From a virus: a DNA stretch of 26,873 bases. Positions within the stretch are counted from its first letter, which is position 1. The number at the start of each line of letters is the position of its first letter. The stretch covers positions 1 through 26,873 of IMG/VR virus record IMGVR_UViG_3300010299_000049, one strand, 5' to 3'. Shown here piece by piece: positions 1,002 through 26,873 of this stretch. The translations under genes were made by a program, and so were the position numbers. Below the pieces are notes generated by a model. It did no database searches and was not told the origin of the DNA. It saw nothing but the letters and a program-made list of their open reading frames with translations.

Positions 1002-1003
1002 AC

Positions 1004-1010: not shown

Positions 1011-1031
1011 CTTTTAAAATCTTTGGCGATA

Positions 1032-3131
1032 ATGGCAGTACAAGGAATAGGCACAGGATCTAGTCCAAATGATGGAAATGGTGATAGTCTACTAGCAGGT
1101 GCTTTAAAAATAAATTCTAATTTTGATGAATTATATACTCTCCTTGGAGATGGGACCACATTAACTTCTAATGTGGTCAATGAACTTGTTGCGGGAAGCA
1201 ATGTTTCTCTTTCTGCTACGACAGGCAAAATTACCATCACTGCAACTGCATCTGCAAGTGCATTAGATTCTGTTTGGAGAACTACAGATGTAGGAATTAA
1301 CACAGTTTCTAACGTTGGAATTGGAAGCACTGGTCCTGAGTCAGCATTAACCGTTTCTGGAGATGCTAAAGTTTCTGGTGTTGTCACTGCAACTTCTTTT
1401 GTTGGAAATTTAACTGGTGATGTAACTGGTGGTGCTACACAAGTATTCATTAGTACAACCACTTCCAACTCAGTAACTAATACTTCATGGTTAGTTCCTT
1501 TTGTTGATGGATCTGGTGGTTCAAACAAACCACTTTATATTACTGGCGCTGGATGGGGTCTAAGATGGTTCAATCCATCTAAAGCACTGTTCGTTACTAA
1601 TTCCACTGATGCGGATCAATCTGCTGATCCTGGAGCAGGAAAGGTAATTATTAGACCCAATGATGTAACAATTGGGGCAAATGTCAAAATTGATGGAAGT
1701 TCCGGAATTATTACCGCAACTACATTGGAAGGTAATGCCACAGGTCTTACAGGAACTCCAGATTTGAATGTCGGAATTGTAACTGCTGTTAGTTTTGTTG
1801 GATCTGGTACTGCTCTAACTGGTGTTTCTGTTGGTAGCACCGATTATGTCACTGGTATAGCAATTACCATGGCAACAGGAAACTTCAGTGGAAATGTTTC
1901 TATTGGAGGAACTACCTCTATTGAGGGCGGTGTAACATTAGTAACTAATAATGCAACTGTTTCTGGAACCATTGGAACAACTGGAGAAATTAAACAAATT
2001 GGTGGAGTTCCATTCTTCTATGATGGAAGTGCATGGAGAGAGTTTGTTCTTTCTACAGGTGTTAGCACTACTCAAACTGCGGATACCAGTTGGGATAATG
2101 TTATCTTAAGATCTACTTATGATACAGACTTCTATGATTCTAAATTCGAAGTTCATCCAGTTCTAACGGGATCTGGTGCTACTACTGTATCCAGTCCTGT
2201 CAAAATAGGAACAAAATCATATAGAAATAATGGATCTGCTGGTGCTGGTTTATCTTATGCATATAGATCCGAATATGACTTTACTGGTCCATGGACAATA
2301 GAATTTTGGATATATCACGATTCTACTCCAGCAGATTATTATACAATAATATCACAACTTTCAACAATTAATACTGCTAATAACTGGGCGTTTACAATTA
2401 GTCAAATCGGCAGCAATATATACTGGCGGTGGTCCAATGAAGCAGAATCTAGTGATCAAACCCTCCATCTAACTTCAACATCTGGTTTCAACAGTAATTA
2501 TGTAAATAAATGGATACATTATGCACTTGTTAGAGAATCCGATAATGGATCCATACACTTTTACATCGATGGTGTAGAAACCGCTTATACGATCAATGAT
2601 GCTGTTATTGATAATGATATAACCAGCACTAATGGAGCTGGATTGTATATTGGAGGGATTGTTAGTGACACTATAAATTCATATACCTTTAATTCCGCAG
2701 GTTCTATAGATGCTTTCTTTGATGATATTAGAATTTCAACAGTAGCAAGATATACATCTATTGGAATTAATACTGATATAACATTCACTCCTCCTTCTAC
2801 TGCTCTTGAGACAACAGGAACACTTACAAGTTCATATACTCCACCTGGAAACAAACGTGGAGTAATTGCCTTAGGAGCAAGTCCAAGTTGGAAAGGAACT
2901 CCTGGTTGCACAGTTTCTCAACAATCTAGCGGAAATTATCGTGTAACTTTTGCAACTCCATATATTAGCAATCTTGATTATTCAGTTCTATCACAGGCAG
3001 CAGATCAAGGATATGCTTCATATGTCGGTATCGCTAGATCAACTGAACATGTAGATATTTCCGTCAACAAACAGAGCGATGATTCTGCTGTTGATACTGG
3101 TTATCTCACTGTTCAGATTACCAATCTGTAA
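1032..3131 (+). CDS. Tail-fibre-like virion protein with LamG/concanavalin-like domain
   Basis: 699 residues if read from ATG 1032. A TTG at 1023 is in frame, but ATG gives the usual fibre N-terminus (MAVQGIGTGSSPNDGNGDSL). Residues 1-45 are that motif, followed by an NSNFDELYTLLGDGT helix. Residues 95-125 contain the stem motif GIGSTGPESALTVSGDAKVSG, related to stem motifs of the fibre proteins downstream. Residues about 370-575 look like a LamG/concanavalin A-like jelly-roll: FTGPWTIEFWIYHD, later WIHYALVRE and IHFYIDGVE, then IDAFFDDIRIS. Such domains usually bind carbohydrate. The gene has its own late promoter motif and precedes gp8. It is inferred to be an accessory fibre or surface adhesin; which virion part carries it cannot be told from sequence. 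The fold assignment is from motif recognition only. Confidence 0.75.
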   Translation: MAVQGIGTGSSPNDGNGDSLLAGALKINSNFDELYTLLGDGTTLTSNVVNELVAGSNVSLSATTGKITITATASASALDSVWRTTDVGINTVSNVGIGSTGPESALTVSGDAKVSGVVTATSFVGNLTGDVTGGATQVFISTTTSNSVTNTSWLVPFVDGSGGSNKPLYITGAGWGLRWFNPSKALFVTNSTDADQSADPGAGKVIIRPNDVTIGANVKIDGSSGIITATTLEGNATGLTGTPDLNVGIVTAVSFVGSGTALTGVSVGSTDYVTGIAITMATGNFSGNVSIGGTTSIEGGVTLVTNNATVSGTIGTTGEIKQIGGVPFFYDGSAWREFVLSTGVSTTQTADTSWDNVILRSTYDTDFYDSKFEVHPVLTGSGATTVSSPVKIGTKSYRNNGSAGAGLSYAYRSEYDFTGPWTIEFWIYHDSTPADYYTIISQLSTINTANNWAFTISQIGSNIYWRWSNEAESSDQTLHLTSTSGFNSNYVNKWIHYALVRESDNGSIHFYIDGVETAYTINDAVIDNDITSTNGAGLYIGGIVSDTINSYTFNSAGSIDAFFDDIRISTVARYTSIGINTDITFTPPSTALETTGTLTSSYTPPGNKRGVIALGASPSWKGTPGCTVSQQSSGNYRVTFATPYISNLDYSVLSQAADQGYASYVGIARSTEHVDISVNKQSDDSAVDTGYLTVQITNL

Positions 3132-3137
3132 TCCTCA

Positions 3138-3144
3138 ATAAATA
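3138..3144 (+). promoter_or_regulatory. Putative T4-type late promoter (ATAAATA)
   Basis: AATAAATA sits in the 30-base gap between the fibre-like gene and gp8, 17 bases before the gp8 ATG. It would drive gp8 and the DUF4815 gene, which follows gp8 after 6 bases without another motif. Confidence 0.65.
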
Positions 3145-3161
3145 ACTAAAAAATTTGCAAA

Positions 3162-4712
3162 ATGGCTGCAATAATCACTGATCAGATAAGAATTTTAAAT
3201 GCTAGTAATTTTGTTTCTGGTGTAACGACCGGAACAGATAGTTACTATACTTGGATTGGACTTCCCAATCCAAGTGACTATAAAAGTGACTGGGATGTAA
3301 GTCCTCCTTCACCGAAGGACAACTTTGACGAAGAGAATGCATATTGGGACAATATGATTGCTCTGAAAAAAATTAATGAATCTGATATCAGACAAGTAGT
3401 TACTAAAAGGGTTTGGTCTTCTGGAACCAAATATGAGATGTACCGTCATGACTATAGCAGAACCAATACTGCTAAAGTTTCTGGTGCATCGAATCTTTAT
3501 TCGACACCCTTCTATGTTCTAAACAGTGATTATAGAGTTTATATTTGTCTTCAAAATGGAACAAGTCCAGAAAACCCATCAGGAAGACCTTCCCTCGATG
3601 AACCAAGATTTACAGATTTAGAACCAAGAGCAGCAGGAAACAGTGGTGATGGTTATGTTTGGAAGTATCTTTATACAATTAAACCATCCGAAATTGTAAA
3701 ATTTGATTCTACTGCATATATGCCAGTTCCTCAAAACTGGGATACAAATGCAGATGCAGCTCCAGTAAGAGATAATGCTGTCGATGGATCAATTAAGATC
3801 GTAACAATTACCAACAGAGGTGTTGGTGTAGGAACAGCGAATCAGATTTATACCAGAGTTCCTATTAAAGGAGATGGATCTGGTGCAGAATGCACATTAG
3901 TTATTAATAATGATCAGCAAGTAGAATCAATTACAGTTTCCAATCAAGGAAGTGGATATACTTATGGAAATATTGATCTGGATGCTGGCAATGTTCCAGT
4001 TTCTACAACTAAGCCTTTATTCAACATTATAATTTCACCTCAAGGTGGACATGGTGCAGATATTTACAGAGAATTGGGAGCAAGTAACGTTCTTCTTTAT
4101 TCTAGAATTGAAAATGATAATGAAAATCCCGATTTTGTTACAGGAAATCAAATTGCAAGATTGGGTCTTGTGAAGAATCCAAGAGTTTATAGTTCTTCCC
4201 AAGTTTTAACATCAGACAAAGCTAGTGCTGCTTATGCTGTTAGACTTACTGGAATTGGTTATAGCACGGCAACATTTACAGCAGATTCATATATTACTCA
4301 AACAATCGGAACGGGACAAACTGCTGCTGGAAGAGTGATTAGTTATGATCAAGTGACTGGTGTTCTTAAGTATTGGCAAGACAGAACTGTTGCGGGATTC
4401 AATACAGTAGGAACTGCACAAAGTAATCCTCAATATGGATATGACATGTTCAGGTTTACTGCTTCCCCATCAACAGGAGGATCCTTATCTATTAATGGAG
4501 GATCTACTACTCTGTCTATCAGCACAAATTTCACGGGTATTTCGACCGTAATAAATAATAAAACCTACTACTTGGGTCAATCTTTTGTCTCTGGTGTGTC
4601 TAATCCAGAAGTTCAAAAATACTCTGGAGACATTTTATACGTTGATAACCGACCTGCCATTACAAGGTCGTCTAGTCAAAAAGAAGATATCAAGATCATT
4701 TTGCAGTTCTAA
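3162..4712 (+). CDS. gp8: Baseplate wedge protein gp8
   Basis: 516 residues; T4 gp8 has 334. Both ends match T4 gp8 well: GDGYVWKYLYTIKP (about residues 162-175) against T4 GDGYVWEYLFEIPP, and the C-terminus GDILYVDNRPAI ending DIKIILQF against T4 GEMIYMENRPPI ending EINILFTF. gp8 is a dimeric wedge protein that links gp10, gp7 and gp6 in the T4 baseplate. The extra roughly 180 residues lie between about 205 and 430. They include two beta modules with VTITNRGVGVG and VSNQGSGYTYG, and a GTGQTAAGRVISYD segment of a second module type also seen in gp14 and the DUF4815 protein. These are probably surface insertions that leave the wedge fold intact. Synteny agrees, although no gp9-gp12 homologues follow as in T4. 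Confidence 0.93.
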   Translation: MAAIITDQIRILNASNFVSGVTTGTDSYYTWIGLPNPSDYKSDWDVSPPSPKDNFDEENAYWDNMIALKKINESDIRQVVTKRVWSSGTKYEMYRHDYSRTNTAKVSGASNLYSTPFYVLNSDYRVYICLQNGTSPENPSGRPSLDEPRFTDLEPRAAGNSGDGYVWKYLYTIKPSEIVKFDSTAYMPVPQNWDTNADAAPVRDNAVDGSIKIVTITNRGVGVGTANQIYTRVPIKGDGSGAECTLVINNDQQVESITVSNQGSGYTYGNIDLDAGNVPVSTTKPLFNIIISPQGGHGADIYRELGASNVLLYSRIENDNENPDFVTGNQIARLGLVKNPRVYSSSQVLTSDKASAAYAVRLTGIGYSTATFTADSYITQTIGTGQTAAGRVISYDQVTGVLKYWQDRTVAGFNTVGTAQSNPQYGYDMFRFTASPSTGGSLSINGGSTTLSISTNFTGISTVINNKTYYLGQSFVSGVSNPEVQKYSGDILYVDNRPAITRSSSQKEDIKIILQF

Positions 4713-4718
4713 AAAGTC

Positions 4719-7700
4719 ATGCCACAAGAAATTAACCTTAACGTATCACCATACTTCGACGATTTTGATTCGGGAAAGGATTATTACAAGGTACTTTTTA
4801 AGCCTGGTTATCCCGTTCAAGCGAGAGAACTGACAACTCTTCAATCTATTCTTCAGAATCAAATTGAACAATTTGGTCAATCCTTTTATAAGGAGGGAGC
4901 TAAAGTAATCCCAGGTCATTTTGGATACAATAAGTCTTATTATGCCGTAAAAATTGACAATATTTCAAATGGTATTCCTGTAGATGCATATCTTACTGAA
5001 CTCGTTGGACTTAAAATTACAGGTAGAAATTCTGGCGTAACAGCGGTCGTTTCTGGATTTTTGTATTCAGATGAATCGGAAACTTCTAATGCTACTTTGT
5101 ATGTAAATTATCTTGGTTCAAGTACAACCGATAACGCTTCACAGTTCTTCAGTGATGGAGAAGATTTATTTGCAAACGATACAATTGTTTCTGGATCTAT
5201 TGCTAGTCCTGTAATTGAATCTGGAGAAACATTTGCAACTACAATTGCTAATGAAGCAAATGCAGTTGGATCTTCCTTCTCTATATCGGAAGGTGTATAT
5301 TTCATAAGAGGAAGATTCGTTACTGTTAAAGATGAAACACTGATTTTAGACCAATATTCCGCAAATCCTTCTTACAGAGTTGGTCTTTATGTTAATGAAG
5401 AGATTGTCAATGCTGATGAAGATGATACATTAAACGATAATTCACAAGGTTTCAATAATTATTCTTCTCCTGGCGCAGATAGACTTAGAATTACTGTATC
5501 TCTTTTCAAAAAACCTCTAGATGATAAAGATGATGCAAACTTCGTGGAATTGGTCACCATTAAAGATGGTGTTTTAAGATCACAAGAAAAAACGGAACTT
5601 TCCAATAGAGTTGGAGATGAGATTTCCAGAAGAATATCTCAGGGAACTGGAGACTATTATATTGATCCATTTTTAGTAACAGCAAAAGAAACTTTAAATG
5701 ATTTAAAAGGAAATGGTGGAATTTTTGGCGAAGGACAACTGACTTCTAATGGATCAATTCCATCAGAAGATCTTGCAACATATCAAATTTCCCCAGGTTC
5801 AGCAGTAGTTAAAGGATTTGATATAAAAACTATTGCTCCAACTTTTATTGATTTTCCAAAAACAAGAACTACTAAAACATTAGAAAATCAATCAATAATT
5901 TACAACACCGGTTCTACTCTTGTACTTAATAGAGTATTTGGATCTCCTAGCATTGGTGTAGGAAACACTTATGTTTTGAGTTTAAGAGGTGAAAGAGTTG
6001 GTCTTGGATCTACTACTCCAGCAGGAAAAGAAATTGGAGTAGCAAGAGTATATGACTTTAAATTAGAATCTGGATCATATGATAGCGAAAATGCAAACCT
6101 AAACAGATGGAATATTTCTTTATTTGATGTTCAAACTGTAACTGAAATTAATTTAAATGAACCAATCACTTTGTCGGTTCCAACCTTCGTAAAAGGAAAC
6201 AAAAGTGGAGCAACAGCATATTTGAATAGTTCTGTTGCTGCTGGAACTGCTTTAACAGTATATCAAAAGTCTGGAGATTTCCTCGTAAATGAAACTTTCT
6301 CCTTTGACGGAATTTCAAATACTAGAGTAGCAACTTCAGTAACTTCATATGGAATGTCAGACGTTAAGTCTGTTTATGGTGTAGTGGGAGTAGCAAATTC
6401 TTTCACTGCGGACGTTATACAAACACCTTCATCGACAATTGGAATTGCAACTATCAGTGCGATTGATGCAGCAACAGGATTTAGTTCAATTCGTTCATCA
6501 AACGAATTTTTCCCAGGAACAATATCAGTCAATAATCTTATAAGATTTACTGATACATCTCTTCCAAATCCAGTTATCGCTAGAGTTGTTAGTGTAGGAA
6601 CTACTCATGTAGTAATTGCGGGAGTTACTACAGTAACAGGAATTACATCTAGCAAACTTCCAAGTTCTACTCTCCAAGTAACAGATTTAACATATCTTAC
6701 AACAAAATTAGGAGATTCTGCGGATAATACGCTTTACACTAGACTTGCTAAACCTAATATTTCTAACGTTTCTATTGATAAAACTACTCTGACAGTTAGA
6801 AAAACATATACCAACCTGATTATTGATTCCACTAAAAAATTATCGACAACTGTAAGTGCTGGCACAGACCTTAGATTCTTGCCTTTTGATGAAGAAAGAT
6901 ACACACTTTTCAGGTCTGATGGAACATGCGAAGTTCTTACTTCAGATAAATTTGAATTTACTTCCGATGCACAAGAACTTCAAATTTATAACTTGAGTGG
7001 AACTGATACTGGAGCAACTTTAGTAGCTACTCTTACAAAAACAAAAGTAAAGGAAAAGGTAAAGAGAAAAAATAGAGTAGGAACTCTTTTAGTTTCATAC
7101 TCAAACAATTCTGCTTCTGGCGTAGGAACTACTTCTATTAATGATGGTTTGACATATGGAAACTATCCATATGGAACAAGAGTACAAGATACGGAAATTT
7201 CATTAAACGTTGGTGATGTTACTGATGTTCTTGGAATTTATGAGTCGTTTGGAACTTCAAATCCATCTGCACCTCAAATGACCTTAACGACCATTTCTGG
7301 TCCAAGCAGTAAGACCTCCGACTTAATTATTGGTGAAGAGTTTGTGGGACAGTCTAGTGGTGCTGTCGGAATGGTTGCAGAAAGAATAGATGACACAACT
7401 ATTTCTTTCATAAGTTTGAATGAAATTGGATTCACTGAGGGAGAATCTGTAATTTTTAAAGAAACTGACATTCAATCAGTAATTACAAATCTATCTTCTT
7501 CAAGTATTAACATTTCAAACAATTATATCTTTAAAAATGGTCAAACCGGCACTATTTTAGGACATAGTTCTATTGTTAGATCGCAAAAGTATTCGGCTCC
7601 AACAAGAAAACTTAAAATTTACTACACAAACGGGTTCTTTGAGTCTTCAGATGAAGGAGATTTTGTAACGGCAAATTCTTACAAAGAGTTTGATTACACC

Positions 7701-19249: not shown

Positions 19250-19480
19250 ATGTCTGAAGAAGAATATAAATCTGTGATTTCAACATATCAACAGAAAGCA
19301 TTTGAACTTTTTAATGCGAATATTGTACTAGAATCTCAGATTCAATCGCAAAAAAATGTCATTGACGCATTAAAAAAAGAGTTAGAAAATATGTCATTTG
19401 AATTGCAAACTCTTAGAGATCTTAGGGAAAAGGGAGAACAGCAAATAAAGACAACTAGGAAATCCAGTGCATCCCAATAA
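19250..19480 (+). CDS. Small coiled-coil hypothetical protein
   Basis: 76 residues: SEEEYKSVISTYQQKAFELF, then a long heptad region (about residues 20-62; IVLESQIQSQKNVIDALKKE, LENMSFELQTLRDLRE) and a short basic tail (KTTRKSSASQ). Similar small proteins starting MSEEEYK are common in T4-like cyanophages; none has a known function to my knowledge. A rod-like oligomer, for example a fibre accessory or chaperone, fits the sequence and the position between fibre genes. The ATG follows directly on a terminator T-run with no Shine-Dalgarno sequence. Expression probably depends on the late promoter inside that terminator, giving a short leader of about 20 bases. Confidence 0.78.
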   Translation: MSEEEYKSVISTYQQKAFELFNANIVLESQIQSQKNVIDALKKELENMSFELQTLRDLREKGEQQIKTTRKSSASQ

Positions 19481-19481
19481 C

Positions 19482-19488
19482 ATAAATA
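19482..19488 (+). promoter_or_regulatory. Putative late promoter (CATAAATA)
   Basis: CATAAATAA lies 1 base after the stop of the 76-residue gene and upstream of a terminator hairpin. Transcripts from it would have to pass that hairpin, so it may be weak or non-functional for the next gene. Confidence 0.35.
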
Positions 19489-19494
19489 AATTAT

Positions 19495-19516
19495 ACCGAT
19501 AAATATCGGTTTTTTT
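19495..19516 (+). terminator. Intrinsic terminator with promoter-bearing loop
   Basis: ACCGAT (19495-19500) pairs with ATCGGT (19505-19510) around an AAAT loop, followed by T at 19510-19516. It is short, with 6 pairs, but has a classic T-run. It separates the coiled-coil gene from the 223-residue gene. Confidence 0.72.
19498..19505 (+). promoter_or_regulatory. Late promoter GATAAATA inside the terminator loop
   Basis: GATAAATA spans the end of the left arm, the loop and the first base of the right arm of the terminator at 19495-19516. Transcription started about 6 bases downstream would begin in the T-run and so lack the hairpin. It is 35 bases before the ATG at 19541. Confidence 0.58.
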
Positions 19517-19519
19517 ACG

Positions 19520-19526
19520 GTAAATA
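19520..19526 (+). promoter_or_regulatory. Late promoter-like GTAAATA in a GGTAAATACC inverted repeat
   Basis: GTAAATA lies 14 bases before the ATG at 19541, within the inverted repeat GGTA-AA-TACC (19519-19528). If used it would give an almost leaderless transcript. It may instead be chance. Confidence 0.25.
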
Positions 19527-19540
19527 CCACACCAAATTGA

Positions 19541-20212
19541 ATGGCCGATCCGAATATTAGGATAAAACGGTCTGCCATACCTGGCAAACAGCCTACGGCA
19601 GATCAACTCCCGTTGGGAGAACTAGCTTTAAATACTAATGATGGAAAACTCTTTGCCTCTAAAAATGCAGGCATAGGAACAACAGTTTTCGCTGTAAATC
19701 CGTGGTCGGTTGGAACAGGAACCGATTCTTATAATGTACATTTTACTGCTGGAAATGTTGGTGTTGGTAGCACAATCCCCACATCTAAATTAGATGTAGA
19801 GGGTGACATCAATGTTTCTGGTGTAATAACTGCTAGTCAATTTATTGGTGGTGGTGTTGGTGTTGGAATTCAATCTGGGGGCACTGTCCTTGGATATGGA
19901 ATTACAACACTGAATTTTATTGGTGCTGGAAATACTTTCTCTGTTAGCGGAACTACCGTCGATATCAGCATAGCTGCTGGTAGTGGTGGAGGTGGTGGAA
20001 CTGGAATCAGTTCCGTGATCATACAGAAAGATGGAACAAATATAGGTACTGGTTCTAGTACTATAAACTTTACCGGAACTGGTATTCAAACTGTTACATC
20101 ATCACCTAGCGGAATTACAACCGTTAGGGTTGAACTGCAAGGTAATCTTGATGGTGGATTGCCTGATTCAAATTACGGCGGCATCGAAGCTATTGAAGGG
20201 GGAGGAATCTAA
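19541..20212 (+). CDS. Fibre N-terminal-domain protein
   Basis: 223 residues. Residues 1-50 (DPNIRIKRSAIPGKQPTADQ, then LPLGELALNTNDGKLFASKN) are a standard phage fibre attachment domain. Residues 75-105 carry the stem motif GNVGVGSTIPTSKLDVEGDI with INVSGVITASQF, nearly the same as the N-terminal part of the S74 gene at 23420. The rest is Gly/Ser-rich beta sequence with a GSGGGGGTG linker, ending NLDGGLPDSNYGGIEAIEGG. There is no receptor-binding tip or chaperone, so it reads like the base of a fibre whose distal part is encoded elsewhere. Its stop is directly followed by the ATG of the collagen-like fibre (TAAATG), which implies tight translational coupling and probably a joint assembly. 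Confidence 0.75.
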   Translation: MADPNIRIKRSAIPGKQPTADQLPLGELALNTNDGKLFASKNAGIGTTVFAVNPWSVGTGTDSYNVHFTAGNVGVGSTIPTSKLDVEGDINVSGVITASQFIGGGVGVGIQSGGTVLGYGITTLNFIGAGNTFSVSGTTVDISIAAGSGGGGGTGISSVIIQKDGTNIGTGSSTINFTGTGIQTVTSSPSGITTVRVELQGNLDGGLPDSNYGGIEAIEGGGI

Positions 20213-23200
20213 ATGGCAACACGAATTCAGATAAGGAGAGGCAGTGCCGCTGCATGGACTTCAGCTGATCCTATTCTCGCTGAGGGTGAACTTGGCGTAG
20301 AACTAGATACGCAGAAATTTAAAATTGGTGTTGGCACAACCAGTTGGAGTGGTCTTAGTTATGCAACTGGTATTCAAGGAACTACTGGTGCCCAAGGAAC
20401 CCAAGGAACAACAGGTATCCAAGGGGATACTGGTATTCAAGGTGTCACTGGTAGAGGTCTGAATATTGTAGGAAACGTTGCTACAGTTGGAGATCTTCCA
20501 GATCCCTACAGTGGAGACGTTGGAGATGCTTATGTTGTAACAGGAACAGGCGATCTTCACGTTTATAATGGAACGAGTTTCGATAACGTTGGACAAATTG
20601 TTGGTCCTCAAGGAACCACGGGCGCTCAAGGAACCCAGGGTATCCAAGGCGAATCAATTCAAGGTACAACTGGATATAATGGTACCCAAGGAACTCAGGG
20701 TATTCAGGGTGATGATGGGGCTCAAGGAATTGCTGGTGCCTTCGCTGCACAAGGTATTCAAGGAACCCAAGGTATTCAAGGTAGAGAACCTGATGTAGCA
20801 CAAACAGAAAAAAATACAATTACCTTTTCTGCTACTGAAGGTCAAGTATCTTTTGGAGCAACATACGTTCCAAATGCGATTGATGTTTATCTGAATGGTG
20901 TCAGATTATCAGAATCGGAATATGTAGGAACAAGTGGAACTCACATTCTTCTTAATGATAGTGCTAATGTAGGGGATGTTTTAGATCTCGTTAAATTTGA
21001 CTTTGGTAATGCTTTTAGAGGTCTTCAAGGCGTACAAGGTCTTCAAGGATTACAAGGAGTTCAGGGTCTTCAAGGACCACAGGGAACAACTGGTATTCAA
21101 GGTGATGTTGGTATTCAAGGAAGTACTGGTGCTCAGGGAACTCAGGGAGTCCAAGGAACAACTGGTATCCAAGGTGATGTTGGTACCCAAGGAACTCAAG
21201 GGGTTCAAGGTGTTCAAGGCGAAATTGGATCTCAAGGTCTCGATGGTGCATATGCCGCACAAGGTATTCAAGGTATTCAAGGTATCCAGGGTTTAACACC
21301 CGACGTTGCTCAAACAAGTAAGACAACAATTACTTTTTCTGCCAATGAAGGTCAAACTTCCTTTGCAGGAACATATGTAGCAGGAGCAATAGACGTATTC
21401 TTAAATGGTGTAAGATTATCAGAATCAGAGTACGTAGGAACAAGTGCAACTAATATTGTTCTAAATGACCCTGCTAACGCTGGAGACGTACTTGATCTTG
21501 TTAAGTTTGATTTTGGTAATGCTCTGAGAGGTTTACAAGGTGTTCAAGGAACACAAGGTATTCAGGGCGATCTTGGTATTCAAGGCATTCAGGGTCTTGA
21601 CGGTGCTTATGCTGCTCAAGGTATCCAAGGTCCACAAGGAACTTTGGGTGTTCAAGGAACAAGTGGTCGTGGTGTTACTATTCTTGGTAGTGTTTCCACA
21701 TCTACAAATCTTCCAGGATATCCATCTTCTTATTCTGGATCTGTTGGTGATGGATATATCACACTAGACACAGGTCACTTATGGACTTGGAACGGTAGTT
21801 CTTGGGACGATGTTGGTAATATCACAGGTCCACAAGGAACCACTGGGTCACAAGGAACACAAGGTATTCAGGGAACTACTGGTTCTCAGGGTCAAACAGG
21901 TATTCAGGGTGACTTAGGTATCCAAGGTATTCAAGGAGAGGCATTACAGGGCGTTCAGGGAACGACTGGCATTCAAGGTGATCTTGGTATCCAAGGTACT
22001 ACTGGTGCTGGTGTACAAGGTGCTACTGGTACTCAAGGTGAAACAGGTACTCAAGGTACAACAGGTACTCAAGGTCTCGATGGTGCATATGCCGCCCAGG
22101 GTATCCAAGGTATTCAAGGCATCCAGGGTTTAACACCTGACGTTGCTCAAACAAGTAAGTCAACTATTACATTCTCCGCTAACGAAGGTCAAACTTCTTT
22201 TGCTGGAACATATGTAGCGGGAGCTATTGATGTTTATTTGAATGGTGTTAGATTATCGGATTCTGAATATGTTGGAACAAGTGCAACCAACATTGTTCTC
22301 AATGATCCTGCTAACGCTGGAGACGTACTTGATCTTGTCAAGTTTGATTTTGGTAATGCATTAAGAGGTCTTCAGGGAATTCAAGGAACAACTGGTATTC
22401 AAGGTTTTACTGGTATTCAGGGAAGTGATGGTGTCCAGGGTCTTGCTGGTGAATATGCAGCACAAGGTATTCAGGGAACTGATGGTTTACAAGGTACCGA
22501 TGGTACTCAAGGAACACAAGGTATTCAGGGAACCACAGGATCTCAAGGAACCACTGGAACTCAAGGAACACAAGGTATTCAAGGTAACAGTGGTCGTGGT
22601 GTTACTATTCTTGGCAGTGTTGCTACAAGCACATCTCTTCCAGGATATCCTTCTTCTTATGGCGGAAACACTGGAGATGGTTATATTACTACCGATACTG
22701 GTCACTTATGGACTTGGAATGGTACTTCTTGGGACGATGTTGGTAATATTACAGGTCCACAAGGAACTACTGGAACACAAGGAACTCAGGGCATACAGGG
22801 ACCTTCGATTCAAGGTGCTCAAGGAACAACTGGAATTCAGGGAACAACTGGAACTCAGGGATCCACAGGTCCACAAGGAACTACTGGTTTACAAGGAACC
22901 ACAGGTCTTCAAGGTTTAACTGGTATTCAGGGAGACACAGGTCTCCAAGGATTAACTGGTATTCAGGGAACTGATGGTCTTGGAGCACTTACAGGAGTTA
23001 CATCTGTAACTAGTGGAACGTTCTTCCCACTGTTCGTTTCTGGAACTGGAGATGTTTCACCAAATATCAGAACAGAAGCAACCGCATTTGGTTATGACGC
23101 AGGAACTAATACTGTTACTGCCACAAACTTCAATACAACTTCGGACATTACACTGAAGAAAAATGTCAATATTATTGAAAATGCCATTGATTCGGTAAAA

Positions 23201-23410
23201 CTTATCAACGGTGTTAAATTTGACTGGAAAGATAATGGAAGACCTTCTATTGGTGTTATCGCTCAGGATGTTGAGCAAGTTTATCCAGAATTGGTTTATG
23301 AAGTAGACGGACAGAAGACATTAAACTATAGCGGTTTAATAGGTGTTCTTGTTGAAGCGGTTAAAGACCTTCAGCAACAAATTAACAATCTAAATAGTAC
23401 TACAGGTTAA
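20213..23410 (+). CDS. Collagen-like tail fibre with C-terminal S74 self-cleaving chaperone
   Basis: 1065 residues. Residues 1-52 (TRIQIRRGSAAAWTSADPIL, then AEGELGVELDT) match the Mtd-type fibre N-terminal domain. Seven tracts of Gly-x-y triplets, mainly GTQGIQGTTG, alternate with two globular domains, each present three times: B (residues 80-131, 485-539, 794-848; DTGHLWTWNGSSWDDVG) and A (195-270, 365-440, 644-719; AIDVYLNGVRLSESEYVG). The order is B-A-A-B-A-B. The last 90 residues are an S74 (endosialidase-type) intramolecular chaperone: S977-D978 in TSDITLKKN, then GVIAQDVEQVYPELV and LNYSGLIGVLVEAVKDLQQQ. Cleavage before S977 is expected after trimerisation. The fibre is inferred to be a trimeric receptor-binding adhesin. 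Confidence 0.92.
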   Translation: MATRIQIRRGSAAAWTSADPILAEGELGVELDTQKFKIGVGTTSWSGLSYATGIQGTTGAQGTQGTTGIQGDTGIQGVTGRGLNIVGNVATVGDLPDPYSGDVGDAYVVTGTGDLHVYNGTSFDNVGQIVGPQGTTGAQGTQGIQGESIQGTTGYNGTQGTQGIQGDDGAQGIAGAFAAQGIQGTQGIQGREPDVAQTEKNTITFSATEGQVSFGATYVPNAIDVYLNGVRLSESEYVGTSGTHILLNDSANVGDVLDLVKFDFGNAFRGLQGVQGLQGLQGVQGLQGPQGTTGIQGDVGIQGSTGAQGTQGVQGTTGIQGDVGTQGTQGVQGVQGEIGSQGLDGAYAAQGIQGIQGIQGLTPDVAQTSKTTITFSANEGQTSFAGTYVAGAIDVFLNGVRLSESEYVGTSATNIVLNDPANAGDVLDLVKFDFGNALRGLQGVQGTQGIQGDLGIQGIQGLDGAYAAQGIQGPQGTLGVQGTSGRGVTILGSVSTSTNLPGYPSSYSGSVGDGYITLDTGHLWTWNGSSWDDVGNITGPQGTTGSQGTQGIQGTTGSQGQTGIQGDLGIQGIQGEALQGVQGTTGIQGDLGIQGTTGAGVQGATGTQGETGTQGTTGTQGLDGAYAAQGIQGIQGIQGLTPDVAQTSKSTITFSANEGQTSFAGTYVAGAIDVYLNGVRLSDSEYVGTSATNIVLNDPANAGDVLDLVKFDFGNALRGLQGIQGTTGIQGFTGIQGSDGVQGLAGEYAAQGIQGTDGLQGTDGTQGTQGIQGTTGSQGTTGTQGTQGIQGNSGRGVTILGSVATSTSLPGYPSSYGGNTGDGYITTDTGHLWTWNGTSWDDVGNITGPQGTTGTQGTQGIQGPSIQGAQGTTGIQGTTGTQGSTGPQGTTGLQGTTGLQGLTGIQGDTGLQGLTGIQGTDGLGALTGVTSVTSGTFFPLFVSGTGDVSPNIRTEATAFGYDAGTNTVTATNFNTTSDITLKKNVNIIENAIDSVKLINGVKFDWKDNGRPSIGVIAQDVEQVYPELVYEVDGQKTLNYSGLIGVLVEAVKDLQQQINNLNSTTG
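20450..20605 (+). repeat. Fibre domain B, copy 1
   Basis: 52 codons, from GRGLNIVGNVATVGDLPDPY to VGQIVG. This is the most divergent copy: the Trp-rich strand of copies 2 and 3 (HLWTWNG) is HVYNG here. Confidence 0.8.
20795..21022 (+). repeat. Fibre domain A, copy 1
   Basis: 76 codons, from VAQTEKNTITFSATEGQVSF to FGNAFRG. It is clearly related to copies 2 and 3, but with more substitutions (PNAIDVYLNG, SGTHILLNDSANVG). Confidence 0.85.
21305..21532 (+). repeat. Fibre domain A, copy 2
   Basis: 76 codons, from VAQTSKTTITFSANEGQTSF to FGNALRG. It is almost identical in protein to copy 3 but differs at many synonymous positions, except in a nearly identical patch at 21470-21522. Confidence 0.88.
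21665..21829 (+). repeat. Fibre domain B, copy 2
   Basis: 55 codons, from GRGVTILGSVSTSTNLPGYP to VGNITG. It is near-identical in protein to copy 3 and includes the aromatic strand HLWTWNGSSWDDVG. Confidence 0.85.
22142..22369 (+). repeat. Fibre domain A, copy 3
   Basis: 76 codons. It differs from copy 2 at only a few residues (S for T at position 7, Y for F in DVYLNG, D for E in LSDSEY). It is followed directly by a collagen-like tract. Confidence 0.88.
22592..22756 (+). repeat. Fibre domain B, copy 3
   Basis: 55 codons, from GRGVTILGSVATSTSLPGYP to VGNITG. It precedes the last collagen-like tract before the chaperone. Confidence 0.85.
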
Positions 23411-23419
23411 TCTAGATAA

Positions 23420-23872
23420 ATGAACAAAACTAGAGAAGTTGCAAACTTAGTTACTGAGAATAATATCTTTGTTAGCACCTCTAATAATAGAGTTGGCGTC
23501 GGATCCACTGTACCAGTAAGTAAACTCGATGTTACTGGAGATGTGACTGCAGATAACTTTAATTCGGCTTCTGACGAGTCGATGAAAAAGAACATTGCTA
23601 GTATCGCAGATGCTATTGCAAAACTTGATAAAATCAATGGCGTTTCTTTCGTATGGAAAGAATCCAATACTAAATCATATGGAGTTGTTGCTCAAAACGT
23701 TCAGAAAGTATTCCCAGAACTGGTAAATGACAACGGATCACACTTAACAGTTAACTATAACGGTTTAATTGGTGTTCTGATTGCTGCGGTAAAAGAACAA
23801 CAAAAACTAATTGGTTCTTTATCCGATAGATTAGATGCTTTAGAAGGAAACAATCAAAGTGAAAACGTTTAA
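23420..23872 (+). CDS. Stand-alone S74 (endosialidase-type) chaperone protein
   Basis: 150 residues, starting 9 bases after the collagen-like fibre stop. Residues 23-48 carry the fibre stem motif NRVGVGSTVPVSKLDVTGDV. Residues 51-130 are an S74 domain: S51-D52 in SASDESMKKN, then GVVAQNVQKVFPELV (88-102) and VNYNGLIGVLIAAVKEQQKL (111-130), with a helical C-terminus (SLSDRLDALEG). The Ser needed for self-cleavage is present. The fibre part is too short to be an adhesin, so the protein is either a trans-acting trimerisation chaperone or the C-terminal end of a split fibre (compare the gene at 19541). The last 14 bases overlap the next gene. Confidence 0.85.
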   Translation: MNKTREVANLVTENNIFVSTSNNRVGVGSTVPVSKLDVTGDVTADNFNSASDESMKKNIASIADAIAKLDKINGVSFVWKESNTKSYGVVAQNVQKVFPELVNDNGSHLTVNYNGLIGVLIAAVKEQQKLIGSLSDRLDALEGNNQSENV

Positions 23873-24014
23873 ACAATTTCAAGAAGATTGGAGTAATAAA
23901 TACAAACGTAATATTGATTGCTCCAATCCTAAAGGATTTTCACAAAAAGCACATTGTGCTGCTAGAAAAAAGAGAGCAAGAGGTGAGGAAACCAAATCGC
24001 TACCAGTGAAATGA
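23859..24014 (+). CDS. 51-residue Cys/Lys-rich peptide (GTG start)
   Basis: The reading frame runs from GTG 23859 to TGA 24012-24014. AGAAGG at 23842-23847 is a good Shine-Dalgarno sequence for that GTG. The product starts MKTFKQFQEDWSNKYKRNID and contains CSNPKGFSQKAHCAARKKRA; this block of Cys, His and basic residues recurs in T4-like cyanophage proteins. It overlaps the S74 gene by 14 bases and the next gene by 4 (ATGA), a typical coupled arrangement. The N-terminal ten residues resemble the T4 capsid-targeting peptide (MKTYQEFIAE), though the expected Leu/Ile before x-Glu is Phe here. Two Cys and one His could bind a metal. Function unknown. A nucleic-acid-binding or head-internal protein is an inference. 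Confidence 0.8.
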   Translation: MKTFKQFQEDWSNKYKRNIDCSNPKGFSQKAHCAARKKRARGEETKSLPVK

Positions 24015-24577
24015 AATCCTTAAAAATTGCGGGAATTGTTTTAGGATCAGTAATAGGAATTGCCCATGTTGGCGTTCTTGGACATTTAATAAAATTATCT
24101 GAGGACATTAAACATCCTCAAATTAATTTGCCAACTGGAAGATATTCTTCATATAAAATAGAAGTTGGGAAGGATGGATACAAGATAGAATACAGAGCTG
24201 ATGATCCAAAGGTATTAAGTTCGGAAAAATCACTCGATCTTGATAAAGAAAAACGGGGATTGTTTGGTGGTGGTTCTGAAAAAAGAACTGAATATCGTCG
24301 TGATGAATATACTGCAGGCGGAACAAGAAATATAGGAGGCGCTGCAATAGACAGCGAGGGAAAGTCTGCAAAAGAAGTAGAGTGCATCGTGGCGGACGCT
24401 GGAGCACGGTCTCAGGGTGCGATGGCAGGTAGTGCTATTTCTGCTGGTGTGGCAGTTCCAGCTTTAATTAACATTCCCTATATTGGATGGTTAGCGGCAG
24501 GTTGGGCGACACTATTGGGACAAAATATTGGATCTGAAATTGGTTCTGAGGTTGGGTCTGCTTTTAATGATTGCTAA
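24011..24577 (+). CDS. Membrane protein with glycine-zipper C-terminus (hypothetical)
   Basis: 188 residues. Residues 5-27 (KIAGIVLGSVIGIAHVGVLG) form one transmembrane segment right at the N-terminus, without a clear signal-peptidase site. Residues 45-66 (YSSYKIEVGKDGYKIEYRAD) are a soluble beta-like region, and 70-125 are charged. Residues 130-186 are Gly/Ala-rich and hydrophobic (GAMAGSAISAGVAVPALINI, then PYIGWLAAGWATLLGQNIGS), ending in repeated GSEIGSEVGS, a glycine-zipper pattern that could insert into or pack within membranes. It overlaps the 51-residue gene by 4 bases. It could be an ejected membrane-active virion protein or an envelope modifier made in infection. A holin role is not excluded but is unsupported by any endolysin nearby. 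Confidence 0.78.
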   Translation: MKSLKIAGIVLGSVIGIAHVGVLGHLIKLSEDIKHPQINLPTGRYSSYKIEVGKDGYKIEYRADDPKVLSSEKSLDLDKEKRGLFGGGSEKRTEYRRDEYTAGGTRNIGGAAIDSEGKSAKEVECIVADAGARSQGAMAGSAISAGVAVPALINIPYIGWLAAGWATLLGQNIGSEIGSEVGSAFNDC

Positions 24578-24580
24578 ATA
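24574..24580 (+). promoter_or_regulatory. Putative late promoter (CTAAATA) overlapping a stop codon
   Basis: CTAAATA contains the TAA stop (24575-24577) of the membrane protein gene and lies 21 bases before the ATG at 24602. It resembles the arrangement at 16369, where the motif also overlaps the stop codon. Confidence 0.55.
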
Positions 24581-24601
24581 ATAAAAAGTCCTGTTTGTGG
24601 C

Positions 24602-25945
24602 ATGAAAAAATATTGTCGTCTTTGTAAGAAAAAAGAACATCGTGAGGAATGCGGATTTGGTCCCAAAATGTGGGACAAGTATTCTGTAGATGATGCTACC
24701 GATAAAGAGCAAGAAACTGCTGCGAAAGAATCTGGAATTATTGATGTTGAAGAAGAAAACAAGAGTGGTGATAGTTCTTTGCGTGACTGGTTTACTAAGA
24801 GTCGCGCTTCTGATGGCACCCCTGGTTGGGTTCAATTGGGCGGTAAATACGCAGGAAAACCCTGTGCCAAACAACCAGGACAAACAACCAAACCAAAGTG
24901 CGGTTCCAGTAAGATGAAACGCAATCTTGACAAAGGTGAAGAAGAAACGGCATTCCGTCGTAAGAATCAAAAAGATCCAAATCCAGATAGAAAAGGAAAG
25001 GCAATTAACGTGGCCACTGAAGAAACAAAAAAAGATCATGAATACTCCATGGCTCGTTCTGAGATAAAAACTCTCAAAAATGCTGCTAAGAGATTAGAGA
25101 AGAAAATGGGCAAAAAAGGTGAGGGAAATCTTGAAGCCTGGGTTCAATCCAAAATCACAAAAGCGGCGGATTATATTGACACAGCTGCGGACTATGTTAC
25201 CAATGAAGAAAAAGATGCATGTTACCATAAGGTAAAGTCTCGTTATAAAGTTTGGCCAAGTGCATATGCTTCTGGCGCATTAGTTAAGTGTCGCAAAAAA
25301 GGTGCTAAAAACTGGGGCAAGAGTACCAAGAAAGAAGGATATGAATATTCAAACTGGAGAGAAGACTTCAAAGCGATGGAATATGAATTCATTGATGTGA
25401 TTACTCCAGATCCACTGGAACCAACAAAGGGAATTGGCAGTGAAATGATCGGAATTGAAGAGGCAGTAAGAGTTCCTCAAAAAACAGGAACAATTGTTTT
25501 TGTATACCTTACTTTTAGAGGAAAAGCATATACCATTCAAATGTTCTTCCCATCAGTAAAACTTCCAAGTAGATCTGAAATTCAAGATCAGATTGATAAG
25601 GTATATCCTGGAGGAAAGGTGAGAAGTTATCACACATCTGATTACAAACCAGGAGAACCAGTTTTTCATACAGAAGATTGGCAAAAAGTTAATAGACAAG
25701 ATAAAACCGATGGATTAAGTCCTGCTGCTGTAAAAGCATACCGCAGAGAAAATCCAGGTTCTAAACTGAAGACCGCTGTGACCAAGAAACCATCAGAACT
25801 TAAAGCAGGTTCTAAGGATGCAAAGCGTCGTAAGTCGTTCTGTTCAAGAATGAGTGGCATGAAGAGGCGTCTCACTTCTGCTAAAACTGCTAGAGATCCT
25901 GATAGCAGAATCAACAAAGCACTCCGTCGTTGGAACTGTAACTAA
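24602..25945 (+). CDS. Basic multi-domain Cys-rich protein (DUF6321/DUF5872-like fusion)
   Basis: 447 residues, strongly basic. Segments in order: residues 5-17, C-x2-C-x4-H-x3-C, close to a zinc knuckle; 59-140, SLRDWFTKSRASDGTPGWVQ, LGGKYAGKPCAKQPG, KCGSSKMKRNL and RRKNQKDPNPDRKGKA, recalled as DUF6321-like; 144-200, HEYSMARSEIKTLKNAAKRL with AWVQSKITKAADYIDTAADY, helical; 207-240, CYHKVKSRYKVWPSAYASGA with LVKCRKKGAKNWG, recalled as DUF5872-like; 290-355, a YPGGKV-type alpha/beta domain; and 386-446, SKLKTAVTKKPSELKAGSKD, RRKSFCSRMSGMKRRL and LRRWNC. Each block occurs in cyanophage proteins of unknown function. Nucleic-acid or metal binding is plausible from composition. The DUF names are from memory. 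The next gene starts on the last base of its stop codon. Confidence 0.85.
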   Translation: MKKYCRLCKKKEHREECGFGPKMWDKYSVDDATDKEQETAAKESGIIDVEEENKSGDSSLRDWFTKSRASDGTPGWVQLGGKYAGKPCAKQPGQTTKPKCGSSKMKRNLDKGEEETAFRRKNQKDPNPDRKGKAINVATEETKKDHEYSMARSEIKTLKNAAKRLEKKMGKKGEGNLEAWVQSKITKAADYIDTAADYVTNEEKDACYHKVKSRYKVWPSAYASGALVKCRKKGAKNWGKSTKKEGYEYSNWREDFKAMEYEFIDVITPDPLEPTKGIGSEMIGIEEAVRVPQKTGTIVFVYLTFRGKAYTIQMFFPSVKLPSRSEIQDQIDKVYPGGKVRSYHTSDYKPGEPVFHTEDWQKVNRQDKTDGLSPAAVKAYRRENPGSKLKTAVTKKPSELKAGSKDAKRRKSFCSRMSGMKRRLTSAKTARDPDSRINKALRRWNCN

Positions 25946-26274
25946 TGAAAAACTTCAAACAATTCTTATCAGAAAGCGTTACCATTCAGGGCGACTTTAA
26001 CGGAACTCTGAATGTTGGTTACGATCCTGTTCAACAAAAAGTCAGTGAACAAAATCAATATATTGCTGATGTAATGTGGATGGGAAGTATATATAGAATG
26101 ACACTAGAAAAAAAGGAATCGATAAGACTTCCCTCTACACAAGAATTAGCAGAACAACTTCAAGGAGAATATCCTGGGGCAATTGTTCAAAGAATTTATC
26201 CAGTAGAACCAAAACCAGAAGTTAAAATTGCAGACGTTAAGAGATATCATCCAGGAAAATTAGAGTGGGTATAA
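25945..26274 (+). CDS. Conserved hypothetical protein with capsid-targeting-like N-terminus
   Basis: 109 residues; the ATG overlaps the preceding stop by one base (TAATG). The N-terminus MKNFKQFLSES resembles the T4 capsid-targeting peptide of internal head proteins (MKTYQEFIAEA), including a possible prohead protease site of the (L/I)-x-Glu type after LSE. The rest (QGDFNGTLNVG, WMGSIYRMTLEKKESIRLPS, TQELAEQLQGEYPGAIVQRI) is an alpha/beta domain. It shares with residues 290-345 of the preceding protein an aromatic Gly-x-x-Tyr strand, then LPS-x-x-E, a helix and Tyr-Pro-Gly. It ends in PGKLEWV. A packaged internal head protein is inferred; no activity can be named. Confidence 0.8.
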   Translation: MKNFKQFLSESVTIQGDFNGTLNVGYDPVQQKVSEQNQYIADVMWMGSIYRMTLEKKESIRLPSTQELAEQLQGEYPGAIVQRIYPVEPKPEVKIADVKRYHPGKLEWV

Positions 26275-26277
26275 ATT

Positions 26278-26873
26278 ATGGCTCAGTGGAATAAAAATGA
26301 ACAAGACTTCTTGAATCAAGAGAGAAGTCTCTTTGAGGTTTTTAATATTGCTGATCACTGGGGAAACCAGACAGACTGGAGACCTCAGTTTTCCGACAAT
26401 AACAGACTAAAGGTTGCTCCCTTCCAAACAGTTTTCTTCAATACTTTCCAGTATGGATTGGAGACTGATGTATGGGATCAAAGAATTATTGGAGTTGGAT
26501 CTGCTACTCATAATCCAACTTCCAGTAATGTGGTTATGGAAGTTGGATCTACTGCTGGTAGTAAGGTTGTCAGGCAGACGAAGAATGTAATGAGATACAT
26601 TCCTGGTAGACCAGCAACTCTTGCATTTGCAGTTCGTCTAGAAACACCACAAGTCGGTATTCGCAGAAGATTCGGATTGTTTAATGAGACTGATGGTGCT
26701 TTCTTTGAGGATGATGGTGGCACATATTCTTATGTAATTCGCAGCAGTGTATCTGGTATCACTACAGAAACAAGAGTAACCAGAGAAAACTGGAATGGTG
26801 AAAAGTTTGATGGTAACGGATACACTGGTGTAACTGCTGATGCTACAAAACAGCAGATGATTTCCATTAACTA
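26278..26873 (+). CDS. N-terminal part of a virion structural protein (partial)
   Basis: The gene begins at ATG 26278, 3 bases after the preceding stop, and is open to the window edge, with 198 residues visible. The start AQWNKNEQDFLNQERSLFEV, then FQTVFFNTFQYGLETDVWDQ, is familiar from large virion proteins of T4-like cyanophages. The later segment (GIRRRFGLFNETDGAFFEDD, VIRSSVSGITTETRVTRENW, NGEKFDGNGYTG) is a beta-sandwich-like region seen in the same family, ending here in the conserved TKQQMISIN. A Cys-poor, aromatic-rich composition also fits a structural protein. Length, C-terminal domains and exact virion location cannot be seen. Confidence 0.8.
   Translation, partial: MAQWNKNEQDFLNQERSLFEVFNIADHWGNQTDWRPQFSDNNRLKVAPFQTVFFNTFQYGLETDVWDQRIIGVGSATHNPTSSNVVMEVGSTAGSKVVRQTKNVMRYIPGRPATLAFAVRLETPQVGIRRRFGLFNETDGAFFEDDGGTYSYVIRSSVSGITTETRVTRENWNGEKFDGNGYTGVTADATKQQMISIN

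Follow-up and report, generated by a model that had tools for sequence, protein, structure and literature searches.

Virions of cyanophages reportedly contain unexplained enzymes and 'hypothetical' proteins. The closest described systems are the internal proteins IPI, IPII, IPIII and Alt of phage T4. In the available text of PMC9026906 they are described as basic, and residues 4 and 7 of their capsid-targeting sequence (CTS) are assigned to targeting and residues 8 and 10 to processing, with L/I-x-E as the cut motif. The T4 core proteins gp22, gp67 and gp68 are also cut by the prohead protease gp21. For cyanophages, the accessible part of PMC3037559 describes the gp16-gp17 region as a known hot spot and reports that the cytidylyltransferase T4-GC 190 of S-SM1 was detected by mass spectrometry (MS) in virions.

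Here we analysed the window, a stretch of 26,873 nucleotides (virus record IMGVR_UViG_3300010299_000049) that is a fragment of a T4-like cyanophage (Kyanoviridae), with a focus on four consecutive genes, g1 to g4. The product of g4 resembles IPI, IPII, IPIII and Alt in CTS residues 4, 7, 8 and 10, in the L/I-x-E cut motif and in its small size, and in complete-genome relatives genes for a scaffold and for a protease of the gp21 type are present, neither of which lies beside the cluster in the window fragment. It differs from these T4 proteins in that mature g4 is acidic (pI 5.3) and in that family searches recognised no T4 relative; g3 lacks a CTS in the window phage, and ejection is here a predicted step. 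With gp22, gp67 and gp68, the g3-type chains have in common that L/I/V/M-x-E often stands before their modules, but g3 is basic, Cys-containing and modular, its relatives occur in mature virions, and its cutting is a proposal. By sequence and neighbourhood g3 is a member of the T4-GC 119/phrog_727/DUF6321 cyanophage proteins, whereas the KGFSQ module is here a separate gene, g1, with g2 in between. Virion-associated cyanophage enzymes (NMNAT, cytidylyltransferase T4-GC 190, SAM hydrolase, kinase) share the N-terminal CTS with g4 but are annotated as enzymes, while g4 has no enzyme match in Pfam, PHROGs or structure searches.

Results

The genes g1 (23859-24014), g2 (24011-24577), g3 (24602-25945) and g4 (25945-26274), all on the plus strand, were recovered at the positions given by the initial annotation, and the sequence confirmed overlaps of 4 bases (g1/g2) and 1 base (g3/g4) as well as a gap of 24 bases between g2 and g3 (24578-24601). 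Downstream, g4 adjoins g5 (26278-26873, plus strand, running off the window), which matches phrog_1645, 'virion structural protein' (E 1.8e-85), and whose homologue SSZBM1_190 was seen by MS in S-SZBM1. At loci picked by similarity, and counting the order among the genes searched for, g1-(g2)-g3 was kept in 94 of the 102 contig clusters with g1, g3-g4 in 80 of the 86 with g4, and g4-g5 in 72 of these 86. This conservation is beyond chance. The initial annotation had named co-occurrence as support for its proposal. Among close relatives co-occurrence is kept for g1, g3 and g4 (and g5), whereas g2 belongs to the group only loosely: of 52 contig clusters containing g2, 12 had g1 or g3 on the same stretch.

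The product of g2 is a membrane-type protein of 188 aa (phrog_605/T4-GC 219) with hydrophobic segments around residues 6-24 and 137-155. It matches phrog_605 over its full length (E 5.7e-86), its S-SM1 match SSM1_165 is T4-GC 219, and members of its family occur in 365 phage records. The homologues in Syn33 and S-RIM2 are about 33 kb away from g3, and gp164, the homologue in S-SCSM1, carries no virion-protein label in the record of that phage. Because its homologues are often elsewhere in the genome and gp164 is unlabelled, g2 is probably a passenger gene outside the set, contrary to its initial inclusion.

A late-promoter-like element, CTAAATA (24574-24580, plus strand), overlaps the end of g2 and starts 28 bases ahead of g3; it has the TAAATA core in common with the S-PM2 late promoter, given as NATAAATA in the available published text. 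All 5 copies in the window are on the plus strand, and each is followed, 19-34 bases from its first base, by the start of a listed ORF. Strand and position are suggestive, while the number shows no excess over chance (mean 6.3), and the same applies to the number of ATAAATA sites.

The g4 protein (109 aa; phrog_1742/T4-GC 1019) matches phrog_1742 with E 3.6e-30 over residues 1-103. Its predicted CTS is MKNFKQFLSE (25945-25974, plus strand), with a predicted cut after E10, where the next residue is S. Both targeting residues, F4 and F7, are present, and F/Y4 and F7 occur in 64/64 distinct relatives; the gp21-type cut motif is formed by L8 and E10, position 8 being L in 42, M in 12 and I in 10 relatives and E10 being found in 64/64. 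Judged by its sequence, the start of g4 fits the T4 CTS at all four positions (4, 7, 8 and 10) mapped in IPIII, so that the 'head-targeting-like start' of the initial annotation agrees fully with the T4 rules, as do the starts of all 64 relatives. The initial description of the grouped proteins as basic applies to g1 (pI 10.1) and g3 (pI 9.6) and not to g4 (pI 5.8). In a structure model of g4 (mean pLDDT 70.9, pTM 0.46), residues 36-90 gave matches below significance to small folds of the T7 Gp2, YkzG and phi29 p6 kind (best Foldseek E 0.22; VIA Z 4.3, rmsd 3.0, 50 aligned). As ribosomal proteins obtain similar scores, the idea of deriving a function from these folds was dropped.

The g3 product (447 aa, 96 K+R, 9 Cys; phrog_727 at E 3.4e-119) is built as a chain of consecutive small modules, most of them basic, and its T4-GC 119/phrog_727 relatives sit between gp16 and gp17, a place read in the relatives. 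As its start, MKKYCRLCKK, lacks a CTS of its own, we did not class it as CTS cargo. The chain contains the module LRDWF..GKPCAKQPGQTTKPKCGSSK..DPNPDRKGKA (residues 58-139; 24773-25018; pI 10.1), mostly above pLDDT 50 in a weak model, a helical module DHEYSMARSE..EAWVQSKITKAADYIDTAADYV (residues 140-202; 25019-25207), the module KDACYHKVKSRYKVWPSAYASGALVKCRKKG (residues 203-243; 25208-25330; pI 10.1) and an acidic linker with a YSNWRE motif (residues 244-288; 25331-25465), in which E287 is a candidate cut site (IEE|A) at pLDDT below 50. These are followed by a beta-beta-alpha-beta module (residues 289-359; 25466-25678) akin to the folded region of g4 (phrog_1742, E 0.016) and the C-terminal DUF6321 module (PF19846; residues 360-447; 25679-25942; 53.6 bits against a Pfam cut-off of 28.5; pI 11.2), all on the plus strand. 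The g3 model was poor (pTM 0.22), and a PDB search returned nothing below E 0.14. In the relatives L403 and L378, g3-type modules stand directly behind a CTS, and in SSZBM1_192 they follow a looser form (MKTFKQYITEA). In the accessible literature DUF6321 was not found in print; DUF5872 alone was, in work on an algal virus.

In g3-type chains L/I/V/M-x-E often directly precedes modules, counted after contexts sharing their last 7 residues had been collapsed to one. The KDACY module does not conform to the cut-site idea (motif ahead of it in 7/42, shuffled mean 5.4), and the KGFSQ module provides only 3 contexts. In the g3 of the window only VEE-51 and IEE-287 are of this kind, and HTE-358 deviates from the motif. 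An L-x-E at residue 51-58 occurs in 5/5 cyanophage major capsid proteins, before A in 4/5; as these proteins hold further L-x-E besides this site, the motif is to be regarded as short and common.

The peptide encoded by g1 starts with GTG and has 51 aa with 14 K+R and 2 Cys; it consists of the CTS-like leader MKTFKQFQE (residues 1-9) and a KGFSQ module (WSNKYK..DCSNPKGFSQKAHC). Among 78 distinct sequences of its family, which include two in-frame fusions and one 10-aa stub, F/Y4 and F7 each occur in 76 and E9 in all 78. Since E9 is constant and position 10 varies, the predicted leader boundary is more likely E9 than E10. A leader ending at E9 instead of E10 is a point against reading it as a CTS. 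We had considered D10 as a mark of a 'targeted but uncut' protein, as D10 in T4 IPIII, and dropped this idea, as position 10 is E in 36, D in 25, S in 13 and another residue in 4 of the 78. The KGFSQ module also occurs within longer chain proteins (S-CAM9, DSL-LC02, P-TIM68), behind a different CTS-like start in S-SM2 gp108, and fused in frame to g3 in the relatives L035 and L036; in P-TIM68 the gene carrying it is the second after that for the major capsid protein. Free-standing g1 is absent from S-SCSM1, S-CREM2 and S-SZBM1, the three phages with per-gene virion lists.

The initial annotation had proposed virion proteomics as a check, and published data gave a mixed answer. Proteins of the g3 type were found in purified virions, namely gp29 of S-SCSM1 and gp137 (peptide coverage 4.1%) and gp160 (located outside the gp16-gp17 slot) of S-CREM2 (its Table 3). 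The g4 homologues S-SCSM1 gp30 and SSZBM1_191 were not among the virion-detected proteins (0/2), in lists that can miss small proteins, the g2 homologue gp164 had no label, and the DUF6321 protein SSZBM1_192 was missing from the S-SZBM1 list. The S-SCSM1 record holds 48 virion labels by our count, against 45 stated in its paper, and the accessible part of PMC9964418 gives 14 proteins for the S-CREM1 virion.

Seven annotated genes of S-SCSM1, S-CREM2 and S-SZBM1 start with a strict CTS, a pattern that is post hoc in that L4 and M8 were admitted after the first scan had been seen. Five of these seven were MS-detected (hypergeometric P 0.0046); without the g4 family it was 5/5 (P 0.0005), and with the narrower, first-used pattern 4/5 (P 0.0066). 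The detection of S-CREM2 gp13 comes from one peptide. When S-SM1 was included, whose T4-GC 190 cytidylyltransferase starts with MKKFSAFLNE, 6/6 other annotated proteins with a g4-like start were virion-detected in the scanned sequence, which excluded bases 1-5000 of S-SZBM1 and bases 1-69999 and 168001-174079 of S-SM1; matches outside annotated genes, one in S-SZBM1 and one in S-SM1, had been dropped before counting. Some virion detections may stem from abundant proteins carried over in the CsCl preparations.

When IMG/VR was scanned with a DNA pattern of the CTS, 50 of the 72 matches lay at the start of a gene, compared to 6 of 41 with a swapped control pattern, and by family 24/32 compared to 6/24, each among the matches listed and after matches fitting both patterns (9/81 and 39/80, among those listed) had been dropped. 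Among the matches listed, many protein families unrelated to one another begin with the motif at their gene starts; at least 65 proteins stand behind the tag, 56 of which were run against Pfam and PHROGs, with 8 g4-like ones and L401 set aside.

Discussion

Gene order, family membership, the CTS match together with its concordance with published virion proteomics, and the detection of g3-type proteins in virions are the observed basis on which we consider it reasonably probable that the products of g1, g3 and g4 belong to the head interior of a T4-like cyanophage and follow the T4 route of CTS and prohead protease, with g2 as a passenger. They would be made late and enter the prohead during core formation, g4 and probably also g1 via an N-terminal CTS of the T4 kind (MKxFxxF[LIM]xE). 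The prohead protease (gp21) would cut g4 after E10, and the mature pieces would remain with the DNA in the head and most likely be ejected alongside it. With its string of small modules, which contain Cys and are mostly basic, g3 could bind the DNA inside the head or, upon entry, act on targets in the host.

The undetected g4 homologues, the acidic mature g4, the missing CTS of g3 and the undetected SSZBM1_192 are points against this proposal. A tail location is possible given the tail neighbours (fibre genes and g5).

It is unlikely, though the most plausible of the alternatives, that g3 (and g4) serve as building blocks of the tail, neck or outer capsid, or as assembly factors, instead of as cargo. 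They are flanked by fibre genes and the MS-detected g5, in relatives they lie between gp16 and gp17, and virion detection by itself does not separate head interior from shell or tail; set against this are the full CTS of g4, the g3 modules directly behind a CTS elsewhere, the position of the P-TIM68 KGFSQ gene near the major capsid gene, and the small size, mostly basic character and shuffled arrangement of the modules, which set them apart from fibres. Somewhat less likely still is that the start of g4 is a chance resemblance or an unrelated conserved N-terminus and that g4 acts unpackaged in the infected cell. Its homologues escaped detection in both proteomes of phages that have one, but the conservation of all four T4-mapped positions, the detection of every other annotated protein with a g4-like start in the scanned sequence and the recurrence of the motif at gene starts of unrelated families (among the matches listed) argue against it. 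It is improbable that g1 to g4 are small, unrelated genes brought together at random in a hypervariable slot (gp16-gp17) and sharing no role. The known hot spot and the clearly mobile g2 speak for this reading, but gene orders are kept at the similarity-chosen loci, the g4 fold recurs as a module within g3-type proteins, and the g1 module is fused to g3 in two relatives.

Beyond the internal head proteins proposed here, we raise tentatively, as a possibility that we rate well below the proposal itself, a general head-cargo system of marine T4-like phages. The 10-residue zip code MKxFxxF[LIM]xE would send a changing set of proteins into the head, including nucleotidylyltransferases, a SAM lyase, kinases, J-domain, SET and HiPIP-like proteins and others. 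Because L/I/V/M-x-E often precedes their modules, T4-GC 119 chains such as g3 might be prohead-protease precursors; they would be cut at this motif into small, mostly basic, Cys-containing peptides that would travel with the genome and seize or shield it at entry.

The initial annotation saw in the cluster a candidate for an undescribed system. This was too strong, since the gene families are catalogued (T4-GC 119, 219, 1019 and 1207; phrog_727, 605 and 1742), PMC3037559 describes the gp16-gp17 hot spot in its accessible part, and the packaging route is that of T4. Our searches found nothing in print on the link to the CTS, nor on a CTS in cyanophages in general.

With a readable address tag, the packaged cargo of abundant ocean viruses could be predicted directly from their genomes, and what T4-like phages inject in addition to DNA, an old question, becomes open to direct tests. 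Should cutting of the chain proteins take place in the head, they would represent a phage precursor from which a set of small peptides associated with DNA is released.

Gene layout and neighbourhood

The window comprises 26.9 kb of a T4-like cyanophage (an IMG/VR fragment): of the 434 phage records that match its right end (19250-26873), 422 carry the name Synechococcus, Prochlorococcus or Cyanophage. The four ORFs g1 (23859-24014), g2 (24011-24577), g3 (24602-25945) and g4 (25945-26274), all on the + strand, are arranged as the initial annotation described, with overlaps of 4 and 1 bases and a 24-base gap. Furthermore, g1 shares its first 14 bases with the S74-type gene before it (23420-23872), and g5 (26278-26873), a virion structural protein by profile match (phrog_1645), starts 3 bases after g4. 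The S74-type gene encodes a second, short S74 protein and follows the gene of a collagen-like (G-x-x) fibre protein (20213-23410) with an Mtd N-terminal domain and a C-terminal S74 endosialidase chaperone. On examination of both strands, 12 of 12 ATAAATA/CTAAATA motifs of the window were located on the + strand, the five CTAAATA each lying shortly upstream of a listed ORF start.

IMG/VR searches with the four proteins (best 80 each) yielded 315 loci in 202 clusters. Among these, g1-(g2)-g3 order was found in 94 of the 102 clusters with g1, and g3-g4 and g4-g5 order in 80 and 72 of the 86 clusters with g4, whereas g1 or g3 was on the same stretch as g2 in only 12 of 52 clusters with g2; because loci were chosen by similarity (best 80 per search) and many contigs are short, these fractions describe close relatives, and the orders cover the searched-for genes only, between which others may sit. 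Among close relatives, the proposed clustering is supported for g1, g3 and g4 and not supported for g2. In loci L035 and L036, the g1 module and g3 form a single in-frame fusion.

g3 matches phrog_727 (E 3.4e-119) and DUF6321. Its counterparts in S-SM2, Syn33, S-SSM5 and S-SM1 carry the annotation T4-GC 119 and are encoded downstream of gp16; in S-SM2, Syn33 and S-SM1 these genes are also upstream of gp17, while the S-SSM5 stretch shown ends before gp17. g4 belongs to phrog_1742 (T4-GC 1019 in Syn33) and g2 to phrog_605 (T4-GC 219). With E values of at most 0.1, g1 matched 17 phage records. In S-CAM9, DSL-LC02 and P-TIM68, its module is part of longer chain proteins, encoded after the major capsid gene in the last two. 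S-SM2 gp108 carries this module at its end and starts with MKTLKQFLKE. A DUF192 domain inside the chain protein S-SM2 gp109 (L004:6120-8246) indicates that folded domains can be spliced into a chain. Close to g3 relatives in the slot downstream of gp16, a SAM-lyase-like domain (PF23780, cut-off 28 bits) was detected in SSZBM1_194 (L335:18253-20376; 33 bits) and, just under the cut-off, in S-SSM5 gp107 (L009:4277-4984, T4-GC 110; 27 bits).

Detection in virions

The initial annotation suggested that g1-g4 are a packaged or ejected set acting at genome delivery or early takeover. In S-SCSM1, the g3 homologue gp29 is labelled as a virion protein, which, reading the record alongside PMC9602691, we took to mean detection by mass spectrometry (MS); this label is missing from gp30, homologous to g4, and from gp164, homologous to g2. 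Table 3 of PMC10665884 lists S-CREM2 gp137 (4 peptides, 4.1%) and gp160 (7 peptides, 13.1%) in the virion. gp137 occupies the gp16-gp17 slot and contains DUF6321 and a stretch resembling g3 residues 285-355, and gp160, encoded outside the slot elsewhere in the genome, hits phrog_727 at 9e-49 and matches g3 residues 59-244. Table 1 of PMC9146016, the S-SZBM1 virion list, includes the g5 homologue 190; it lists neither 192, which has DUF6321, nor 191, the homologue of g4. These three lists therefore give detection of g3-type proteins in 2/3 readable proteomes, of g4 in 0/2 and of g2 in 0/1. Free-standing g1 had no match in the three genomes. Packaging is supported for g3-type proteins and likely for both g4 and g1; for g2 it is not supported, and ejection of the products is putative.

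SSZBM1_195 (L335:20378-20641; 87 aa), encoded immediately downstream of terS, ranks third by emPAI in the S-SZBM1 virion, and the small virion-labelled S-SCSM1 gp93 (L012:41626-41835) has the C-terminus KRTFKEFLEYIE, a string resembling a capsid-targeting sequence (CTS). S-CREM2 gp12 (L016:7704-10313), present in the virion and annotated as Cas9, gave no Pfam match at E 0.01; around residue 19 it contains RFASFMAEA, an internal CTS-like stretch.

A probable capsid-targeting tag in g4 and other cyanophage proteins

In T4, leader residues 4 and 7 direct internal proteins to the head, while residues 8 and 10 make cutting possible, at the motif L/I-x-E (PMC9026906). g4 starts with MKNFKQFLSE|S, and F/Y4, F7, L/I/M8 and E10 are kept in 64/64 distinct relatives, 57 of which lack N3 and were hence not picked by the sole search pattern covering this start. 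We scanned S-SCSM1, S-CREM2 and most of S-SZBM1 with a strict CTS pattern, M-x2-[FYL]-x2-F-[LIM]-x-E, which had been widened post hoc after a first look. Seven annotated genes fit, of which five were MS-detected (P 0.0046; P 0.0005 with the g4 family left out); the narrower first pattern gave 4/5 (P 0.0066). The detected products are an NMN adenylyltransferase of S-SCSM1 and a SAM hydrolase, gp13 (one peptide), a kinase and a cytidylyltransferase of S-CREM2; the remaining two, homologues of g4, were not detected. Simulated first-order Markov genomes contained no strict match in 15 runs. Within 98 kb of S-SM1, the sole annotated fit is the T4-GC 190 cytidylyltransferase, which according to PMC3037559 is present in the virion. 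The MS-detected SSZBM1_140 starts with MRFRQFIIEA, the motif short by one residue, and was left out of the counts.

Across IMG/VR, the DNA pattern of the tag matched at least 120 stretches, with 80 loci listed. Gene starts were defined by a stop at most 15 codons upstream and an ORF of at least 40 aa. Among the matches listed, 50/72 tag matches (those also fitting the control excluded) were at gene starts compared to 6/41 for a control with swapped F and L positions, and per family 24/32 compared to 6/24. For the 56 tagged proteins outside the g4 family, the only aligned positions are M1, K2, F4, F7 and E10, which the pattern fixes. Among the matches listed they comprise cytidylyltransferase-like (15), DUF6267 (6), zeta-toxin/AAA_33 (3) and HiPIP (3) proteins; SET, DnaJ, methyltransferase and HAD acid phosphatase each have one match, further families are present, and several matches score under the Pfam cut-off. 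The short CTS proteins L366:5022-5222, L410:4970-5167 and L413:1055-1255 have matches to high-potential iron-sulfur proteins, of which one exceeds the cut-off and two fall just short of it. In the metagenomic viruses L369, L371, L357, L406 and L340, a CTS start precedes J-domain, SET, HAD phosphatase-like, methyltransferase-like and zeta-toxin/kinase-like matches. Since two of the tagged proteins, L403 and L378, are g3-type chains, the chain itself bears the tag in some phages; g3 of the window does not. The open-licence literature that combines capsid targeting with cyanophage or marine, PMC9026906 and PMC5694885 among it, yielded no description of a cyanophage CTS, and one capsid-targeting review mentions cyanophages in its reference list only.

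Candidate cut sites in the chains

For eight module types in 142 chain-like proteins (311 distinct contexts), [ILVM]xE ended at most four residues from the module start in 157/311 contexts, compared to 33/311 when the position was moved upstream by seven residues and about 41/311 after shuffling. The excess was seen in 7/8 module types, with 3 contexts only for KGFSQ, the module of g1; no excess preceded the KDACY module. L-x-E is also present at residues 51-58 in 5/5 cyanophage major capsid proteins, which have other L-x-E closer to the start; this is the region where the 65-residue T4 gp23 propeptide (PMC9026906) ends. In g3, E51, E287 and E358 lie in segments with pLDDT <50 of a predicted model that is weak overall. 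Because relatedness of the sequences was removed only in part, the excess is a lead towards possible prohead-protease-type cutting of the chains.

Possible role

The folded half of g4 is predicted as beta-beta-alpha-beta and has counterparts within the g3-type proteins from S-CAM9 and S-SCSM1. Fold matches of g4 to T7 Gp2 and phi29 p6 were too weak to assign a function and were dropped. The S-CREM2 virion contains a CTS-bearing SAM hydrolase, and in T4, IPI inhibits restriction, while Alt is ejected and modifies RNA polymerase (PMC9026906). The set may, by analogy, protect the DNA as it enters or target host enzymes.
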